Part shown: in pieces, positions 10,821 through 48,674 of the stretch
Position numbering within the stretch: position 1 is the first letter of the stretch
How the letters are laid out: the number at the start of each line of letters is the position of its first letter
Source of the DNA: Parasphingopyxis algicola
Lineage (GTDB): Bacteria > Pseudomonadota > Alphaproteobacteria > Sphingomonadales > Sphingomonadaceae
Length of the DNA: 64,000 bases
Reading direction: 5' to 3'
Assembly: GCF_013378075.1 (NCBI RefSeq)
Contig: NZ_CP051131.1
Span: forward strand, 2,678,501-2,742,500
Made by a program: the position numbers and the translations under genes
The notes under the pieces: model-generated
Seen by the model: only the letters and a program-made list of their open reading frames with translations
What the model was told of the DNA's origin: nothing
Databases searched by the model: none

Positions 10821-11005
10821 TTTGTCAGACTCGACCTGGCGGTCGAGCGCGGCACCAGATTTTGGTTTGTCAGAACATTGCTGTCGCAATGTCGCCGCAC
10901 CGGCCCTCTCCCCCTCCCGGCCTCCCAACAGGGTATACTCAATGGGAGGCCGGGAGGGGGAGAGGGCCGGTGCGGCGCTCGACCGCCAGGTCGAGTCTGG
11001 CAAAG
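10821..11005. repeat. composite palindromic cassette, copy 1
   Basis: Two left modules (TTTGTCAGACTCGACCTGGC... and TTTGTCAGAACATTGCTGTC...) lead into a perfect 35-bp inverted repeat: arms 10893-10927 and 10943-10977, starting CGCCGCACCGGCC and ending GGCCTCCCA, with loop ACAGGGTATACTCAA. A right module CTCGACCGCCAGGTCGAG-TCTGGCAAA closes it. It fills the gap between 9879-10784 and the gene at 11121. Confidence 0.9.
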
Positions 11006-11120
11006 AAAGCGAGACCCACGAAAATTCCCCCAAACACCTCATCTTCCCCGCATTCGCTTTGACATTGATAGTCATTATCAATAAATCGAGAATCCATTCT
11101 CCAGCATGAAGGAAATTCCC

Positions 11121-11384
11121 ATGGCTTCGAAATTGCGGCGCACTTCCTATCTCTCGCGGCTCGGTGTCGGCACCGGTATCGGCGCGCTGGCGCTGGTCAC
11201 GGGCGCCTGTTCGCCGGGCGGCGAGAGCGTCAGCGACAGCGATCCGGGCGGCGACGTATCCGAGCCCAGCGAAGCGGCGGCGCCGGCCACCGACAGCGAT
11301 GTCGCCGGCCAGGATGTCGAGCCGGAAGCGGTCGAACAGGGCTCCACCGACACCGAAGGGGATGCGGCGACCGATAGCTATTAG
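11121..11384 (+). CDS. Tat-type lipoprotein related to the TDSDTG repeat family, 87 aa
   Basis: Start ATG 11121 after AAGGAA. The N-terminus (MASKLRRTSYLSRLG, GIGALALVTGAC) matches that of the cluster at 18379-20845: an RR motif, then GIGAL..VTG, then a lipobox cysteine as in the protein at 20174. The mature part is short, Asp/Glu/Ala-rich, with DSD and DTEGD remnants instead of full repeats. It therefore looks like a degenerate or minimal paralogue 7 kb from the main cluster. Export by the Tat route and lipidation are inferred from the signal. Function unknown. Confidence 0.7.
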   Translation: MASKLRRTSYLSRLGVGTGIGALALVTGACSPGGESVSDSDPGGDVSEPSEAAAPATDSDVAGQDVEPEAVEQGSTDTEGDAATDSY

Positions 11385-11871: not shown

Positions 11872-12142
11872 GTCAGACTCGACCTGTCGGTCGAGCGCGG
11901 CATATTTGTCTGTCAGAATTTCCCTATCGGGAAATCGCCGCACCGGGTTTTGATTTGTCAGAACATTGCTGTCGCAATGTCGCGGCACCGGCCCGCTCCC
12001 CCTCCCGGCCTCCCACAGGGTATACTCATTGGGAGGCCGGGAGGGGGAGCGGGCCGGTGTAGCGCCTGAGGCGAAGCCGAAGGTCTGACAAAAGAATCCC
12101 GGTGCGGCGACCTTGCGCAAGCCAGGTTCTGACAGACAAGAA
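11869..12142. repeat. composite palindromic cassette, copy 2
   Basis: Three left modules (stems CTCGACC/GGTCGAG, ATTTCCC/GGGAAAT, ACATTGC/GCAATGT), a 30-bp perfect core inverted repeat (11986-12015 and 12030-12059, GCTCCCCC type) with loop CAGGGTATACTCAT, then right modules ending CTGACAAAAG and CTGACAGACAAG. It begins in the T-run of the csp terminator and fills the gap to 12162. Confidence 0.9.
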
Positions 12143-17642: not shown

Positions 17643-18188
17643 ATGCATGCGTCCCTATCGGCCTTGAGCGCGTTCTTGCTTGCCGCCGCGCCGGTCGCGG
17701 TGCACGCCGCCGGACCAGTTGCACCGATCGCGCCCGCCGCCAATCCGCAGATCGATTATCCGGCATTCGTCGCGATGGCCGCGGCCGTGCAGGAGGTGCG
17801 CGCGAGCCGGCTGCTCGATCTCGAGACGTTCCAGGAAATGGCCGGCGAACCCCGCGCGCTGCTGCTCGACGCGCGGTCCGCCGAAGCGTTCGCGCTGGGC
17901 CATATCGACGGCGCCGTCAACCTGCCGCTGCCCGACTTCACCGCCCGGAGCCTGGCGGAGACAATCGGGCCGGACGCGGACCGGCCGATCCTCATTTATT
18001 GCAACAACAATTTCGTCAACGATGTCGCGCCGGTCGTGCGCAAGGCGGTCGCGCTGGCGCTCAACATCCAGACGATGATCAATCTGCACGGCTATGGCTA
18101 TTCCAACGTCTACGAGCTGGGCGAGGCGGTCGATCTCGCCGATCCGCGGGTGCGGTGGGTCGCCGACGACCGGAGGGCGGAGAGCTGA
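17643..18188 (+). CDS. exported rhodanese-domain protein, 181 aa
   Basis: Start ATG 17643 after AAAGGAG. Signal peptide (ALSAFLLAAAPVAVHA), then a rhodanese domain: ALLLDARSAEAFALGHIDGAVNLPLPDF and the active-site loop ILIYCNNNFVND, with the catalytic cysteine present. Periplasmic sulfurtransferase or redox-active single-domain rhodanese. It precedes the repeat-protein cluster by 190 bases on the same strand; a link is possible but not shown. Confidence 0.9.
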   Translation: MHASLSALSAFLLAAAPVAVHAAGPVAPIAPAANPQIDYPAFVAMAAAVQEVRASRLLDLETFQEMAGEPRALLLDARSAEAFALGHIDGAVNLPLPDFTARSLAETIGPDADRPILIYCNNNFVNDVAPVVRKAVALALNIQTMINLHGYGYSNVYELGEAVDLADPRVRWVADDRRAES

Positions 18189-18378
18189 CGGGCAAGAATT
18201 TCGGGTCGCGAGGGTCGAGCGTACGGGGTCGCACATACGTCGTTGCGATGCCGTAACAAATAGGAGAAAGGTGCCGTGTTGCGAGCGATTATCATTAAGA
18301 GAATGTTTTTTGACAGGTTCGGGCAGGAAGGTTACATCCGGAGCCCGGGCGCGCGTAATTTTGTTTGGGGAGGGGCAA

Positions 18379-19146
18379 ATGAGTTCTAAGCTCGATCGCA
18401 GATCATTTTTGAGGCGCGTCGGTGCCGCAGCCGGCGTCGGCGCGTTGGGAGTCGTATCCGGAAGCCCCGCCCGCGCCTTTCAGGTAACCGACAGCGACAC
18501 CGGACGGTACGCCGATCCGATCGGACGCGGGCGCGGCGGTAGCGGCGTCACCGACAGCGATACCGGCAGCTATGCCGACCCGGTCGGCCGTGGGCGCGGA
18601 TCGAGCGGCGTCACCGACAGCGACACGGGCCGCTATGCCGATCCGGTCGGCCGCGGACGCGGGCGTTCCGGGATTACGGACAGCGATAGCGGCCGCAATG
18701 CGGATCCGGCGGGCAACGGCCGGGGCCGCTCGGGCATTACCGACAGCGATAGCGGCCGCAACGCCGATCCGGCGGGCGATGGCCGTGGTACCAGCGGCAT
18801 CACCGATAGCGATACGGGCCGCAATGCGGATCCGGCGGGTGATGGACGCGGCGGCGGACGCAGCGGCATTACCGACAGCGATACGGGCCGCTACGCCGAT
18901 CCGGCCGGTAATGGCCGGGGCCGTTCGGGCTGTTCGGACAGCGATGGCGGCACCTATGCCGATCCGGGCGGCCGGGGCCGCCGGTGCGGCAGCCGGTCCG
19001 GCTATACCGATAGCGATGGCGGCAGCATGGCCGATCCGGGCGGCAACGGCCGCGGGCCGCGCCGCAACTATCGCACGGGCATCACCGATGCCGATAGCGG
19101 CTCGAACGCCGATCGCGGCGGATATGGACGGGGCAACGACCGGTAA
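18379..19146 (+). CDS. Tat-exported TDSDTG-repeat protein with ten repeats, 255 aa
   Basis: ATG 18379 follows GGGGAGGGG. The N-terminus (KLDRRSFLRRVGAAAGVGALG) is a textbook twin-arginine signal, cleaved near ARA-FQ. The whole mature protein is ten tandem units of about 21 residues with consensus [IV]TDSDTGxxADPxGxGRG plus a Gly/Ser/Arg linker. The last three units drift (CSDSDGG, YTDSDGG, ITDADSG) and gain paired cysteines. The D-x-D-x-G spacing recalls calcium-binding loops of thrombospondin-3 or dockerin type, and the GRG ends give strong positive charge; both are inferences. Tat export implies folding or cofactor loading before export. First of four consecutive paralogues, followed by a JmjC oxygenase. 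Confidence 0.85.
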   Translation: MSSKLDRRSFLRRVGAAAGVGALGVVSGSPARAFQVTDSDTGRYADPIGRGRGGSGVTDSDTGSYADPVGRGRGSSGVTDSDTGRYADPVGRGRGRSGITDSDSGRNADPAGNGRGRSGITDSDSGRNADPAGDGRGTSGITDSDTGRNADPAGDGRGGGRSGITDSDTGRYADPAGNGRGRSGCSDSDGGTYADPGGRGRRCGSRSGYTDSDGGSMADPGGNGRGPRRNYRTGITDADSGSNADRGGYGRGNDR

Positions 19147-19241
19147 CGGCGCCTGCTAGACCCGAATTGGCGTGCCGGGTGTCCCGCGGCAGTCGCCGGT
19201 ATCGACGTCAAATCTCTTGTGTAGTGTGAAAGGGTCAATCG

Positions 19242-19610
19242 ATGAGTAGAAAAATGGATCGCCGCTCCTTCCTGCAACGCGTCGGCGCAACGGCGAGCAT
19301 CGGCGCGCTGGGCATCGTGACCGGCACGGGCGCCGCGCGGGCCCAGATCACCGACAGCGACACAGGGCCGTCCGCCGATCCGGCGAACCGGTCGGGCTGC
19401 ACCGACAGCGATGGCGGCGCCAGCGCCGACCGCGCGGGCAACGGCCGGTGCGGCGGCAGCACGGGCTATACCGATGCCGATGGCGGCGCGATGGCCGATC
19501 CGGGCGGCAACGGCCGGGGGCCGGCCCGCTCCTCGCCTTCGGGAATGACCGATGCGGACAGCGGATCGACCGCCGATCGCGGCGGTTACGGCCGGGGAAG
19601 CGATCGTTAG
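19242..19610 (+). CDS. Tat-exported TDSDTG-repeat protein with four repeats, 122 aa
   Basis: ATG 19242. Signal RRSFLQRVGATASIGALGIVTG...ARA, then four units: ITDSDTGPSADP, CTDSDGGASADR, YTDADGGAMADP, MTDADSGSTADR. The repeats match the last units of the 18379 protein (GYGRG near the C-terminus in both), which suggests that the two arose by tandem duplication and shortening. Contains two cysteines. Same strand, 95 bases after the first paralogue. Confidence 0.85.
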   Translation: MSRKMDRRSFLQRVGATASIGALGIVTGTGAARAQITDSDTGPSADPANRSGCTDSDGGASADRAGNGRCGGSTGYTDADGGAMADPGGNGRGPARSSPSGMTDADSGSTADRGGYGRGSDR

Positions 19611-19695
19611 GTACTGACTGGCGGTCTCGTCATTCGCCGCCGGGTTTTCAGACTTCCGAATGACTATCACGACCCATTGAAGAGGGGGGAATTTG

Positions 19696-20016
19696 ATGAC
19701 TAAGAAATTGGATCGCCGTTCATTCTTGCGGCGAGTCGGCGCGACGGCCGGTATCGGCGCGCTCGGCATCGTCACGGGTACGACTGCCGCCCGGGCGCAG
19801 GTCACCGACAGCGATACGGGCCGCAACGCGGATCCGGTCGGACGCGGCCGGACGGGCGTGACCGACAGCGATACCGGATCCAGCGCCGATCGGGCCGGCC
19901 ATGGCCGCGGCAGCAGCAGCGATCCGGGCGGACGCGGCCGGAATTGCAGCGACAGCGATGGCGGCAGCCGGGCCGATCCGGGCGGACGCGGCCGTTCCTG
20001 CAGCGACAGCGACTAG
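19696..20016 (+). CDS. Tat-exported TDSDTG-repeat protein with three to four repeats, 106 aa
   Basis: ATG 19696 after AGAGGGGGG; a TTG three bases earlier is less likely. Signal KLDRRSFLRRVGATAGIGALGIVTG...ARAQ is almost the same as in the other paralogues. Units: VTDSDTGRNADPVGRGR, VTDSDTGSSADRAGHGRG with a partial SSSDPGGRGR, CSDSDGGSRADPGGRGR, and a final CSDSD at the C-terminus, i.e. the protein stops inside a repeat. Confidence 0.85.
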   Translation: MTKKLDRRSFLRRVGATAGIGALGIVTGTTAARAQVTDSDTGRNADPVGRGRTGVTDSDTGSSADRAGHGRGSSSDPGGRGRNCSDSDGGSRADPGGRGRSCSDSD

Positions 20017-20101
20017 CAACCGGCCCGGCCTCGGCGCGGCCTATGCCGGATCGATGCCGGGCAATCGTCGGCGGGATCGCTGATCTGACTGTGTGAACCG
20101 A

Positions 20102-20130
20102 GGCGGCGTCCATTTTTCGTGGATGCCGCC
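20102..20130 (+). terminator. probable intrinsic terminator after the third repeat gene
   Basis: GGCGGCGTCCA and TGGATGCCGCC pair around a T-rich loop; the downstream tract is CCGCTTGTTT, so termination may be partial. It would separate the first three repeat genes from the fourth. Confidence 0.5.
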
Positions 20131-20173
20131 CCGCTTGTTTCCCAGGGTCTGAGCTACAAGGAAGGGGAAGCCC

Positions 20174-20845
20174 ATGTCTTCGAAATTCAATCGCCGTTCG
20201 TTTCTCAGCCGTATCGGCGCGACCGCTGGCCTCGGCGCGCTGGCCACCGTTACCGGTGCCTGCGACCAGCTCGGCCTCGGTGGCGGCGAAGACAGCGATA
20301 CCGCGGGAACCGATCCGGGCGACGACATGCCGCCCGCGGGCGGCGCGGAATCCGGTACGGCGGGCAGTGGCGAGACGGGGTCGGCGGGCGCCGAGCCCCC
20401 GGTCCAGAGCGGGCTCACCGATACCGATAGCGGGGCGACGGCGGACCCGGCCGGCAACGGCCGTGGCGGACCGAGCAATGGCGGCAGCGGCATCACCGAC
20501 AGCGATACAGGCGCCAATGCCGACCCGGTCGGACAGGGCCGCGGCGGCAATAGCGGCGGCATCACCGACAGCGACACCGGCGCGAACGCCGATCCCGTGG
20601 GCCGAGGGCGCGGCGGCAATCGCAGCGGCGGCGGAACCGGCGTGACCGACAGCGACACCGGCACCAATGCCGATCCGGTCGGTCAGGGCCGCAGGCCGAA
20701 CACCGGCGTTACGGACCGGGATACCGGCGCGAGCGCCGACCCGATCAACGGCGGACGCGGCGGCCCGGGGAGTACCCGGGGTTTCACGGACAGCGATATG
20801 GGCTCCAGCGCCGATCCGGTCGGCCAGGGCCGCGGCGGCAACTGA
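20174..20845 (+). CDS. Tat lipoprotein with six TDSDTG repeats, 223 aa
   Basis: ATG 20174 after AAGGAAGGGG. Signal KFNRRSFLSRIGATAGLGALATVTGAC ends in a lipobox cysteine, unlike the three upstream paralogues but like the protein at 11121, so this one is probably membrane-anchored. An acidic/Gly-rich spacer (about 35-75) precedes six units: LTDTDSGATADP, ITDSDTGANADP twice, VTDSDTGTNADP, VTDRDTGASADP, FTDSDMGSSADP, each followed by a GxGRG-type linker. Asn precedes ADP in several units. The gene sits 165 bases upstream of the JmjC oxygenase on the same strand. Confidence 0.85.
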   Translation: MSSKFNRRSFLSRIGATAGLGALATVTGACDQLGLGGGEDSDTAGTDPGDDMPPAGGAESGTAGSGETGSAGAEPPVQSGLTDTDSGATADPAGNGRGGPSNGGSGITDSDTGANADPVGQGRGGNSGGITDSDTGANADPVGRGRGGNRSGGGTGVTDSDTGTNADPVGQGRRPNTGVTDRDTGASADPINGGRGGPGSTRGFTDSDMGSSADPVGQGRGGN

Positions 20846-20918
20846 GACGGTCCCCAGCCGCCACGTCTTTTCGCCAAGTTCCATCCCATGGATGCCTTGC
20901 GGCAAACCGCCTGGTCTT

Positions 20919-20932
20919 TTGCTCCAGATCAA
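20919..20932 (+). promoter_or_regulatory. FNR/FixK-like box upstream of the oxygenase gene
   Basis: TTGCTCCAGATCAA matches the TTGAT-N4-ATCAA consensus in nine of ten fixed positions and lies about 80 bases upstream of the JmjC start codon. Alphaproteobacterial FnrL/FixK sites have this form. Function is inferred from sequence only. Confidence 0.4.
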
Positions 20933-21010
20933 TGTGCAACGGACGCGCCATGGCCAGAAATGGCGTGACAGAATAAGGGTGCGGCCGGTCCGCGTTTTTC
21001 GAGAGACATC

Positions 21011-22222
21011 ATGCACAAATATGACCCGACCACCGGTCTTCCGCAGGAATCCATGGATGCGCTCCACCGCGTCCTCGGCCCGGTCGATCCGAGCACATTC
21101 TTCACCGAGACCTTCGAGGAGAATTTCCACCTGATCGAGCGCGGCGAGCCCGGCCGTTTCGCCGATCTCGTCTCGGTCGACGTGCTCGACGCCTTCATCG
21201 CCGACAACCAGCTGTTCGACGGCCAGATCGATGCGACCCGCGCCGATCCGCAGATCCGCCGCGACGCCTTCACGCTCGAGAACAACCAGATCGATCGCAG
21301 CGCGCTGCTGCGGCTCTATCAGGACAAGGCGACGATCATCGCGCCGCACCTGCACAGCTATCACAAGCCGCTCGGCGATTTCGTCCGTGCGCTCGAGCCG
21401 GTGTTCAGCGCCTCGGTGCAGACCAATATCTACCTGACCCCCCCGGGCGCGACGGGTTTCCGCACCCATTACGACAATCACGACGTGTTCGTGATGCAGG
21501 TATCGGGCGCCAAGAGCTGGCGGCTCTACGATGAACCCGTCGGCAAGCCGTTTCGCGGCGAGGGGTTCGAGCCCGGCAAGCACGATGTCGGCGATCCGCA
21601 GGAGGAATTCGTCCTCAAGGCCGGCGACACCGTCTATATCCCGCGCGGCATGATGCACGACGCCGATGCGCATGATGAGGAAGCTTCGCTCCACATCACG
21701 CTCGGCCTCGTCACCAAGACCTGGGCGGATGTCGTGCTCGAGGCGATTTCCAAGGCGGCGCTTGAGACGGACGGTCTGAGGCGCGCCCTGCCGCCCGGCT
21801 ATGCCAATCGCGATTTCGATCGCGGTCCGGCGCGCGAGCAGTTCCGCGCATTCGTCGCCGAGCTGGCGGAAAAGGCCGAGCTCGACGAGCCGCTCGACAT
21901 CATCGCCGAGGATTATGTGAAATCGCGGACCCCGGAGATGGCGGGCATCGTCCGCTACGCCTCCAGCCCGGTCCCCGAGGACCAAGGCTACCAGGCCAGC
22001 GAGAACGGCCTCTACCGCCTGATCGAGGACGAGGAGAGCGGCGAGTTCGCGGTCGTCACGCGCGGCGGATCGAGCGAATTTATCGGCGCGAAGCGCAAGG
22101 CGTTCGACCGGGCGATGGACGGCGAACCCTTCACCCGCGCCGATCTTCCCGAGATCGAGGAAGCGGACGCGATCGATCTGGTCCGGCGGCTGCTGTCGCG
22201 GGGATTGGTGCGGCCGGTTTAG
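21011..22222 (+). CDS. JmjC/cupin-4 2-oxoglutarate Fe(II) oxygenase, 403 aa
   Basis: ATG 21011. The N-terminal half includes FFTETFEENFHLIERGEPGRF as in ribosomal-oxygenase-like (RoxA/NO66/MINA) proteins. The metal triad is visible as H153-Y-D155 in GFRTHYDNHDVFVMQVSGAKSWRLY and H216 in YIPRGMMHDADA, followed by SLHITLGL. Enzymes of this family hydroxylate protein side chains (Arg, His, Asn, Asp) using O2 and 2-oxoglutarate. C-terminal 120 residues are a winged-helix-like tail as in RoxA relatives. Its position just after four repeat proteins rich in D, N and GRG makes these attractive substrates; no direct evidence. Alternative: a ribosomal-protein or metabolite hydroxylase unrelated to the neighbours. 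Confidence 0.9.
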   Translation: MHKYDPTTGLPQESMDALHRVLGPVDPSTFFTETFEENFHLIERGEPGRFADLVSVDVLDAFIADNQLFDGQIDATRADPQIRRDAFTLENNQIDRSALLRLYQDKATIIAPHLHSYHKPLGDFVRALEPVFSASVQTNIYLTPPGATGFRTHYDNHDVFVMQVSGAKSWRLYDEPVGKPFRGEGFEPGKHDVGDPQEEFVLKAGDTVYIPRGMMHDADAHDEEASLHITLGLVTKTWADVVLEAISKAALETDGLRRALPPGYANRDFDRGPAREQFRAFVAELAEKAELDEPLDIIAEDYVKSRTPEMAGIVRYASSPVPEDQGYQASENGLYRLIEDEESGEFAVVTRGGSSEFIGAKRKAFDRAMDGEPFTRADLPEIEEADAIDLVRRLLSRGLVRPV

Positions 22223-22266: not shown

Positions 22267-22487
22267 TTTGTCAGACTCGACCTGTCGGTCGAGCGCGGCA
22301 CCGGGATTCTTTGGTCAGAATTTTCCTGACGGAAAATCGCCGCAAATTTTTTGTCAGAAACTTCCTATCGGAAGTTCGCCGCACCGGCCCTCTCCCCCTC
22401 CCGACCTCCCGTTGAGTATACCCTGTGGGAGGTCGGGAGGGGGAGAGGGCCGGTGCGGCGCCTGAGCGTCAGCGAAGGTCTGACAAA
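22267..22487. repeat. composite palindromic cassette, copy 3
   Basis: Left modules with stems CTCGACC, ATTTTCC/GGAAAAT and AACTTCC/GGAAGTT, core arms of the CTCTCCCCCTCCCGACC type with matching changes in both arms, and a loop in the opposite sense (GTTGAGTATACCCTGT). Right module CCTGAGCGTCAGCGAAGG-TCTGACAAA. Fills the gap between the oxygenase and 22506. Confidence 0.9.
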
Positions 22488-24683: not shown

Positions 24684-24907
24684 TTTGTCAGACTCACAAC
24701 CTAGCGGTTGAGCGCCGCACCGGGATTTATCGGTCAGAACGTTGCTAGCGCAACGTCGCCGCACCGGCCCGCTCCCCCTCCCGGCCTCCCACGAGCGTAC
24801 CCTGATTGGGAGGCCGGGAGGGGGAGCGGGCCGGTGCGGCGATTTTCCGTCAGGAAAATTCTGACAAAAAAAGAAGTTCGCCGCACTGACCCTCAGGTCG
24901 AGTATGA
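24684..24907. repeat. composite palindromic cassette, copy 4
   Basis: Left modules CAACC/GGTTG and ACGTTGC/GCAACGT, core of the GCTCCCCCTCCCGGCC type with loop CGAGCGTACCCTGAT (reverse sense), right modules ATTTTCC/GGAAAAT ending CTGACAAA, then a decayed module CCGCACTGACCCTCAGGTCGAG. Confidence 0.88.
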
Positions 24908-27876: not shown

Positions 27877-28172
27877 TTTGTCAGACTCGATTCTTGGGTC
27901 AGAATTTCGCTAGCGCGAAATCGCGGCACCGGCCCGCTCCCCCTCCCGGCCTCCCACAGGGTAAACTTATTGGGAGGCCGGGAGGGGGAGCGGGCGGAGA
28001 TGGCAGAGGCTCCGGCGGCGCAAAGCGTCGTTGGATGCCATCGGAGGGCGGTGCCGCGCTCGACCGCAAGGTCGAGTCTGACAAACAGTCCCCCGGTGCC
28101 GCGCCTGAGGCGAAGCCGAAGATCTGACAAAAGGAATCTGCCGCGCTCGACCGTCAGGTCGAGTCCGACAAA
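27877..28172. repeat. composite palindromic cassette, copy 5
   Basis: Truncated left modules, core GCTCCCCCTCCCGGCC type with loop CAGGGTAAACTTAT and a right arm that breaks off after GAGCGGG. It continues into a unique-looking 100-bp block (about 27979-28086) that recurs almost exactly at 33251-33354, then three right modules ending TCTGACAAA, TCTGACAAA and TCCGACAAA. Confidence 0.88.
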
Positions 28173-32328: not shown

Positions 32329-32560
32329 TTCGTCAGACCTTCGGCGTTCGCCTCAGGCGCCGCGCCGGGGTTCACTTGTCAGAACATTGCTATCGCAATG
32401 TCGCCGCACCAGCCCGCTCCCCCTCCCGACCTCCCACTAGGGTACACTCAATGGGAGGTCGGGAGGGGGAGCGGGCTGGTGCCGCGCTCGACCGCAAGGT
32501 CGAGTCTGACAAACAAGAATCTGGTGCGGCGATTTCCTGCTATGGAAATTCTGACAAACA
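32329..32560. repeat. composite palindromic cassette, copy 6
   Basis: Left module TTCGTCAGACCTTCGGC...CCTCAGGCGCCGCGCC and an ACATTGC module; core CACCAGCCCGCTCCCCCTCCCGACC with the exactly compensated right arm (GGTCGGG...GGGCTGGTG), loop CTAGGGTACACTCAA. Right modules CTCGACCGCAAGGTCGAG and ATTTCC/GGAAAT, each ending TCTGACAAA. Confidence 0.9.
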
Positions 32561-33058: not shown

Positions 33059-33362
33059 TTTCGTCAGGCCTTCGGCTTCGCCTCAGGCGCCGCCCCGGGT
33101 TTCTCTTGTCAGAACATTGCTATCGCAATGTCGCGGCACCGGCCCGCTCCCCCTCCCGGCCTCCCATTGAGTGTACCCTGTTGGGAGGCCGGGAGGGGGT
33201 GCGGGCCGGTGCCGCGCTCGACCGATAGGTCGAGTCTGACAAAAGAGACTCCGGGAGGGGGAGCGGGCGGAGATGGCAGAGGCTCCGGCGGCGCAAAGCG
33301 TCGTTGGATGCCATCGGAGGGCGGTGCCGCGCTCGACCGCAAGGTTGAGTCTGACGAACAAA
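33059..33362. repeat. composite palindromic cassette, copy 7
   Basis: Left module CCTTCGGCTTCGCCTCAGG, an ACATTGC module, a core with one arm mismatch (GCTCCCCC versus GGGGGTGC) and a reverse-sense loop TTGAGTGTACCCTGT, a right CTCGACC module, then the 100-bp block shared with copy 5 (33251-33354) and a final module ending TCTGACGAAC. Fills the gap before 33372. Confidence 0.88.
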
Positions 33363-42958: not shown

Positions 42959-43186
42959 TTTGTCAGAATTTCTCTCGCGCGAAATCGCGGCACCGGATTC
43001 CATTTGTCAGACTCAACCTGTCGGTTGAGCGCCGCACCGGCCCGCACCCCCTCCCGACCTCCCATTCAGGGTATGCTCGTGGGAGGTCGGGAGGGGGTGC
43101 GGGCCGGTGCGGCGAACTTTCGCCAGAAAGTCTCTGACAATCAAAACCCGGTGCCGCAACGTTGCGCTAACAACGTTCTGACAGAT
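42959..43186. repeat. composite palindromic cassette, copy 8
   Basis: Left modules TTTCTCTCGCGCGAAAT and CAACC/GGTTG, core of the GCACCCCCTCCCGACC type compensated in both arms, loop TTCAGGGTATGCTCG, right modules AACTTTCG...AAAGT and AACGTTGCGCTAACAACGTT, ending CTGACAATC and CTGACAGAT. Confidence 0.9.
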
Positions 43187-48495: not shown

Positions 48496-48674
48496 TTCGT
48501 CAGAATCGACCTGTCCGTCGAGCGCGGCAGACTCCTTTGTCAGAATTTCCCTCGCGGAAAATCGCCGCACCGGCCCGCACCCCCTCCCGGCCTCCCAACA
48601 GGGTATACTCAATGGGAGGCCGGGAGGGGGTGCGGGCCGGTGCGGCGCTCGAACGTTAGTTCGAGTCTGACAAA
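48496..48674. repeat. composite palindromic cassette, copy 9
   Basis: Left modules TTCGTCAGAATCGACCTGTCCGTCGAG and ATTTCCC..., core of the GCACCCCCTCCCGGCC type with the same loop as copy 1 (ACAGGGTATACTCAA), right module CTCGAACGTTAGTTCGAG-TCTGACAAA that touches the stop codon of the DUF1134 gene. Confidence 0.9.

Follow-up and report, generated by a model that had tools for sequence, protein, structure and literature searches.

The window analysed here is a 64,000-nt stretch of the 3.67-Mb genome of Parasphingopyxis algicola (contig NZ_CP051131.1, positions 2,678,501 to 2,742,500), and positions are given within it. It contains an operon of four genes for Asp-repeat proteins with signals of the twin-arginine translocation (Tat) type, followed by the gene of a JmjC_2 oxygenase. 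Across several phyla, oxygenases of this subfamily co-occur with Tat-type Asp-repeat proteins, and the two very probably form an enzyme-substrate pair. We tentatively propose that the arrays are Asp-hydroxylated, exported by Tat and iron-binding, and that they belong to a modification-export module tied to iron limitation.

Repeat proteins and oxygenase of the P. algicola locus

The operon and a fifth, short repeat gene upstream of it comprise the following genes.

18379..19146, + strand: repeat protein 1, 255 aa, start MSSKLDRRSFL, Tat signal, 10 [ST]DxD units
19242..19610, + strand: repeat protein 2, 122 aa, start MSRKMDRRSFL, Tat signal, 4 units
19696..20016, + strand: repeat protein 3, 106 aa, start MTKKLDRRSFL, Tat signal, 3-4 units
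20174..20845, + strand: repeat protein 4, 223 aa, start MSSKFNRRSFL, Tat-type start, lipobox-like VTGAC, linker, 6 units
21011..22222, + strand: JmjC_2 (cupin-4) oxygenase of the Fe(II)/2-oxoglutarate type, which presumably hydroxylates the arrays (PF08007; NO66 by sequence and fold)
11121..11384, + strand: short fifth member, start RRTSYLSR as a degenerate Tat-type signal, VTGAC resembling a lipobox, few [ST]DxD motifs

A sequence-only reading had described four paralogues with RRSFL-type signals and 10, 4, 3-4 and 6 units, followed by a JmjC/cupin-4 oxygenase with an H-x-D...H triad. The open reading frames and motif counts bear out the first part; the second agrees with a match of the oxygenase to PF08007 JmjC_2 (E 5.6e-27) and with its metal triad H153-x-D155...H216. 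Counted as [TSN]DxD, genes 1-4 have 10, 4, 4, and 6 motifs, and their array units, which follow the Tat-type signal, take the form [ST]DxD...GxGRG. Tandem Repeats Finder places 63/126-nt tandem arrays of gene 1 inside 18487-18967 and a 69-nt array of gene 4 at 20484-20629. The NCBIfam model TAT_signal_seq recognizes genes 1 and 2 above its cut-off of 16.7 bits (19.5 and 16.9), while genes 3 and 4 lie slightly under it (15.6 and 14.5). In gene 4, the VTGAC downstream of the Tat region resembles a lipobox. The fifth member matches gene 1 weakly (E 6.8e-5, 37% identity) and no Pfam family.

We rejected a known repeat family or fold for the arrays. None of the four repeat proteins matched a Pfam family at E values up to 1, the calcium-repeat models TSP3, EF-hand, and RTX included, and the repeats tested against NCBIfam gave nothing besides Tat-signal-type and weak sub-cut-off matches. 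No PHROGs family was found for genes 1 and 4, nor any PDB sequence match for gene 1. The AlphaFold model of gene 1, computed with four orthologues and hence from five sequences only, had a predicted local distance difference test (pLDDT) score of 41 and no confident fold.

The oxygenase is modelled with high confidence (pLDDT 93.9) and adopts the JmjC fold. In Foldseek, NO66 (E 9.7e-31) and MINA are the best matches, YcfD-like structures come next, and FIH is distant (E about 1e-9). The closest named relatives among the matches listed are from Parasphingopyxis, at 83-85% identity. A mobile origin was rejected: viral contigs contained no confirmed relative, and the 25 matching plasmid records (22 from Streptomyces) are all below 60% identity, and one of them aligns over 80% or more of the query. 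The P. algicola genome contains a second, remote JmjC_2-like match (G000:C1:1004691-1004945, 27% identity, E 3.1e-4), perhaps a YcfD orthologue.

Co-occurrence of repeat proteins and oxygenase

The earlier reading had offered, as one of two possibilities, that the repeats are substrates of the oxygenase, and had called for a check of whether the two co-occur and adjoin more often than chance. We ran this check in three genome samples. In the family sample of 199 genomes, the oxygenase (E ≤1e-20) and relatives of gene 1 (E ≤1e-3) each occur in nine, and these are the same nine genomes, spanning four of 96 genera. The two genes are adjacent in eight of them and 153 kb apart in the ninth (G186). 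In the class sample of 367 genomes, the oxygenase profile sets 12 genomes (best E ≤2e-96) apart from 33 others, in which no JmjC_2 match is better than 9.9e-43. Repeats (E ≤1e-5) were found in 11 genomes, all within the 12 bearing the subfamily, and in none of the 33 having only weaker matches. A repeat copy adjoins the oxygenase in 11/11 repeat-bearing genomes; in the twelfth subfamily genome (G398), the oxygenase ends a 6-kb contig. In the phylum sample of 398 genomes, repeats occur in six, all within the eight that bear the oxygenase. Two of these six (G718 and G838) have their profile-matched repeats on other contigs and divergent cassettes next to the oxygenase, and the other two of the eight (G743 and G842) have divergent cassettes by the oxygenase as judged by eye.

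The three samples overlap and their genomes share ancestry, so hypergeometric figures overstate the co-occurrence. Counted by genus, the family sample alone gives p of about 3e-7. The pairing is not due to chance and the linkage is strong, which supports the proposed substrate relationship. Neither a wide occurrence of repeat families without an oxygenase neighbour nor oxygenases in unrelated contexts, the outcomes named as refuting it, was seen. In the three samples, repeats were found solely in genomes with the oxygenase subfamily and are mostly adjacent to it. Several unlinked repeat genes occur within single genomes, and one enzyme may therefore serve many substrates. In P. lamellibrachiae, one such unlinked gene (L050:8501-9241) consists of eight near-identical units, as if amplified recently.

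Neighbourhood of the oxygenase across phyla

We then scanned 84,980 species, each represented by a single genome, with an oxygenase alignment. The best 80 of at least 566 confirmed stretches were kept and, together with the locus under study and eight family loci, gave 89 loci. L041, L043, and L046 duplicate L055, L056, and L125 and were removed, which left 86 non-redundant loci. A further alignment, A3, comprises 59 oxygenase sequences. The HxD...H triad and Lys168 of the oxygenase are invariant in all 86. Neighbours were called by a fixed rule, which asks for an RR motif followed by at least three [TSNGCAP][DN]xD motifs within 450 residues, in a gene no more than 3 kb from the oxygenase. By this rule, a precursor-type gene stands beside the presumed modifying enzyme in 63/89 loci (60/86 non-redundant). 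Rule-positive open reading frames number 111 in 0.49 Mb near the oxygenase vs one in 0.74 Mb farther off. Inspection by eye revealed an Asp-repeat gene next to the oxygenase in 20 of the 26 loci that fail the rule, for a total of 80/86; several of these are weak cases, namely L066, L081, L088, and L126, whose arrays are cut by the contig end, and L107, which is partly N. The remaining six (L048, L079, L102, L112, L117, and L129) have no resolvable repeat neighbour. L079, L112, and L129 lie at contig ends, and in L048 a repeat gene is 153 kb distant from the oxygenase.

The records, many of which are metagenome-assembled genomes, are labelled Alpha- and Gammaproteobacteria, Acidobacteriota, Polyangia, Sandaracinaceae, other deltaproteobacteria, Chloroflexi, and Bacteroidetes. 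The contig of L069, labelled Dehalococcoidia, carries TonB-receptor and Tat-type genes like gammaproteobacterial loci and is probably misbinned. Outside DxD, the array sequence is very plastic across loci, with variants such as SDSDSSDRSGR in marine gammaproteobacteria, DPDKKK in Acidobacteriota, and DGTDGTDG on a Chloroflexi contig. The genes flanking the pair vary by lineage, and the pair itself persists.

Proposed target residue

We used NO66 and MINA, the best structural matches, to inspect the substrate site. According to PMC9994133, the substrate His of these enzymes makes contact with a Tyr and a Ser, and simulations showed Asn to be too short for contact with this Ser. The family profile, when NO66 is aligned to it, equates Tyr328 with Tyr141 of the P. 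algicola enzyme and Ser421 with Gly232; the 93-residue spacing of the two NO66 residues served as a check on numbering. The Tyr is kept in 86/86 loci, and the Ser of histidyl hydroxylases is not kept, being Gly in 86/86. In the partner proteins, His accounts for 0.4% of array residues and is missing from 29/61 loci, and the arrays of the P. algicola locus (517 residues) contain one His and no Lys.

Other residues are also missing from some arrays, namely Asn in 6/61 loci, Pro in 5/61, Arg in 3/61, and Lys in some. Of the residues known to be hydroxylated by this enzyme class, Asp alone remains in all arrays, although the selection rule favours it. β-Hydroxylation of Asp is suggested, and on balance Asp appears to be the target. 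A precedent is FIH, a JmjC enzyme that accepts Asp according to PMC4543633. The foremost alternative is hydroxylation of the Arg in GxGRG, as by YcfD on L16, with a product whose role is structural or in binding rather than centred on hydroxy-Asp. GxGRG is indeed frequent, Arg accounts for 10% of array residues and occurs in 58/61 loci, and YcfD, a distant structural match, is described as an Arg hydroxylase in the same paper, PMC4543633. This alternative is nonetheless unlikely, as the arrays of L093, L103, and L128 have no Arg and still adjoin the oxygenase, the array of the Chloroflexi locus L130 is composed of D, G, T, A, and E, and NO66 and MINA match the oxygenase better than YcfD does.

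A leader in divergent members

Divergent repeat proteins carry a leader, L-x-[DE]-x-x-I, before the RR motif. A search with the pattern L-x-[DEM]-x-x-I found it in 15 proteins from 11 loci, with a spacing from Ile to RR of exactly seven residues in 15/15, and further leader-bearing proteins are visible by eye. The L130 protein has the leader and no RR, and the P. algicola locus proteins have RR and no leader; the leader is therefore probably not part of the Tat signal. We infer that it guides the enzyme.

Such a leader is also what would be seen if the repeat proteins were multi-core precursors of ribosomally synthesized and post-translationally modified peptides (RiPPs), whose modified units are excised and act as small secreted signals, antimicrobials, or metallophores. 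The retention of the leader in L130 and the differing number of units among orthologous repeat proteins point the same way. Excision is rather improbable, given that the loci read have no constant protease or peptide-exporter neighbour (no systematic search was made), that the P. algicola proteins lack the leader, and that some members are lipoprotein-like, which suits an anchored protein.

Fur-type operators and iron context

Potential regulatory sites were scored with a 19-mer E. coli-type Fur motif. Two sites precede the repeat genes of the window.

11064..11082, unstranded: Fur-type operator-like palindrome ATTGATAGTCATTATCAAT, 15/18 scored positions, upstream of the fifth repeat gene
18278..18296, unstranded: site GTTGCGAGCGATTATCATT resembling a Fur-type operator, 101 nt 5′ of gene 1

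The core of ATTGATAGTCATTATCAAT is the sole site in the genome with at most one mismatch to TGATAATNATTATCA. GTTGCGAGCGATTATCATT scores 13/18 against the E. coli-type motif and 16/18 against a TGCGAA variant, and it is one of two genome places with one mismatch to TTGCGAAYNATTMTCAWT, a variant derived from GTTGCGAGCGATTATCATT itself. Across loci, the 250 bp 5′ of the first repeat gene reached at least 13/18 with the E. coli-type motif in 13/55 loci vs 11/773 control upstream windows. Most hits come from Parasphingopyxis, with sites 87-102 nt before the gene, from Maricaulis and its relatives, and from gammaproteobacteria, where L083, L084, and L091 score 17/18. One unlinked P. lamellibrachiae repeat gene has a 16/18 site 101 nt upstream. 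Five alphaproteobacterial loci with true rule-passing repeat genes did not reach a score of 14. Operator-like motifs thus precede repeat genes in three lineages, namely Parasphingopyxis, Maricaulis-like alphaproteobacteria, and some gammaproteobacteria, and judging from these motifs the module is likely to be iron-regulated there. A Fur motif at all loci was rejected, as 13/55 linked and 2/12 unlinked repeat genes pass.

In the P. algicola genome, the strict E. coli-type Fur box was rejected as the sole motif. It has three places at no more than three mismatches, which include the start of an apparent citrate synthase gene, the site of the fifth repeat gene, and L135. In view of these few matches, a TTGCGAA variant was derived from the operon's own site. 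It occurs in 26 rows (about 23 places) of the genome vs two for the reversed control; as it was chosen post hoc, independent evidence comes from the identity of the other genes downstream of its sites. Its other one-mismatch place is about 290 nt 5′ of a gene of the ferritin family. At two mismatches, it precedes feoA-feoB and a TonB receptor, and at three, hemerythrin and rubrerythrin. Among the upstream regions of TonB receptors, one of 30 looked at (46 receptors found) scores 16/18. In the sphingomonad Sphingobium SYK-6, Fur1 binds promoters of feoA and TonB-receptor genes (PMC7376174).

Iron-uptake genes adjoin the pair in a few loci. The gene order in L069 is PepSY_TM, small gene, repeat gene, oxygenase, and TonB receptor. 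L091 starts with the small gene and continues with the repeat gene, the oxygenase, PepSY_TM, and the TonB receptor, with sites of 14-18/18 between. Pfam confirms PepSY_TM or TonB-receptor neighbours in L069, L091, and L047. Near the oxygenase, 5/86 loci have a PepSY_TM relative and 4/86 have a relative of the L069 receptor. L081 adjoins HemS and FecCD genes, and L047 adjoins a TonB-receptor barrel and a regulator of the FUR family, perhaps Zur. The gammaproteobacterial-type modules repeatedly contain a small protein that matches no Pfam family (L069:1419-1826, L091:7013-7417, and L084:6848-7216), and in L069 its gene adjoins that of PepSY_TM.

Other features of the window

Directly upstream of the operon is a rhodanese-domain gene (17646-18188), and the DNA just 5′ of the first repeat gene in L054-L056 resembles the same gene. 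The window also contains an intergenic element resembling repetitive extragenic palindromes (REP-like), which is made of inverted GGGAGGGGGAGAGGGCCGGTGCGGCG pairs about 33 nt apart and has 17 matches with at most three mismatches vs none in shuffles.

10893-10977, 11981-12064, 22377-22460, 24757-24841, 27922-27947, 32402-32486, 33132-33216, 43030-43114, 48563-48647: REP-like element, GGGAGGGGGAGAGGGCCGGTGCGGCG pairs

Proposed function

In the mechanism that we propose, low iron would derepress the operon, and the JmjC enzyme would, while still in the cytoplasm, β-hydroxylate Asp within each array of [ST]DxD units. Tat would then export the modified arrays, some as lipoproteins. Outside the cell, clustered Asp and hydroxy-Asp would bind Fe(III) and concentrate iron for TonB/PepSY uptake. 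The chemistry would be akin to that of β-hydroxyaspartate siderophores, on a ribosomally made scaffold. This reading as a whole is plausible without being probable, and iron binding as the function of the arrays has the same standing. Its fullest form is more speculative, with gene-encoded, iron-starvation-induced, siderophore-like proteins that carry hydroxy-Asp arrays and serve TonB/PepSY uptake after Tat export, in an old module of several phyla whose leader guides the enzyme in divergent lineages.

Several points weigh against the proposal. The rule that gathered the repeats selects DxD, and the constancy of Asp is therefore partly circular. Operator calls are motif matches, not proof of Fur binding; 42/55 loci are below the threshold, most loci outside the three lineages have no such site, and 10/12 unlinked repeat genes have no operator. 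Of the five genome places with at most two mismatches to the TTGCGAA variant, one is in a glycosyltransferase-like gene, and several to many three-mismatch sites are inside ordinary genes. Most loci have no iron-uptake neighbour. Induction of an Fe(II)-dependent enzyme under iron starvation is also not self-evident.

The sequence-only reading had offered metal binding, with calcium as the metal. We retain the former and replace the latter by iron on the regulatory and neighbourhood evidence in three lineages. As calcium-binding surface or matrix proteins, the arrays would have their folding or Ca(II) binding tuned by Asp hydroxylation following Tat export. DxDxG is reminiscent of calcium loops and Tat exports folded proteins. 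We consider this a poor prospect in light of the Pfam search, which gave no calcium-repeat match, the model of gene 1 without a confident fold (pLDDT 41, from five sequences only), and the Fur-type control and iron-uptake neighbours, which would not be expected. It is very unlikely that the oxygenase acts on another protein, such as a ribosomal one as its closest characterized relatives NO66, MINA, and YcfD do, and that the linkage reflects shared regulation only, given that the three genome samples contain no repeats without the oxygenase subfamily, that the pair stays where surrounding genes change between lineages, and that the partner keeps its Asp arrays despite otherwise diverged sequence.

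If the proposal is true, a protein-based, post-translationally hydroxylated iron ligand joins a field of small-molecule siderophores, the NO66/MINA/YcfD enzyme family gains a bacterial role away from the ribosome, and a set of repeat proteins that lack annotation is explained. Should iron binding prove wrong, an oxygenase dedicated to its substrate in several phyla, and in part preceded by Fur-type operators, would still be new biology.

Comparison with known systems

The module fits no described family that could be named or tested. We found no description of the repeat-oxygenase system in open-licence PubMed Central papers, and those containing the string TDSDTG concern other proteins, judging by their titles and the starts of their abstracts. 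NO66 and MINA, the ribosomal histidyl hydroxylases of the JmjC type, are alike in sequence and fold, in the HxD...H triad, and in the substrate-contacting Tyr. They differ in the Ser that contacts the substrate His, which is replaced by Gly here, and in that the present gene adjoins exported Asp arrays nearly without His; this linkage points to the repeat proteins rather than a ribosomal protein as substrate. YcfD, the arginyl hydroxylase of ribosomal L16, is likewise a bacterial PF08007-type JmjC enzyme with a matching fold, but the match is much weaker, and some partner arrays here are Arg-free. FIH, itself a JmjC enzyme, and AspH resemble the proposed enzyme as 2-oxoglutarate oxygenases that hydroxylate Asp/Asn at many repeated sites, in repeat or EGF domains (PMC4543633). 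Both are human enzymes; FIH is a distant fold match only, and AspH belongs to another subfamily.

β-Hydroxyaspartate siderophores, for example the cupriachelins, share the proposed hydroxy-Asp ligand and the context of iron limitation (PMC10484230). They differ in being small lipopeptides, whereas in the present case the ligand would sit on an array encoded by a gene. Cupriachelin-type lipopeptide siderophores are made by non-ribosomal synthetases. Bufferins and other metallophore RiPPs of the multinuclear non-haem iron-dependent oxidase (MNIO)/DUF692 type consist of a short exported protein encoded beside a modifying iron oxygenase, and are linked to metals. At the locus under study, the enzyme is JmjC_2 and not DUF692, the residue is Asp and not Cys, and the signal is of the Tat type. 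With the chemistry that we infer, the module is thus partly RiPP-like and partly hydroxyaspartate-siderophore-like, matching neither fully.

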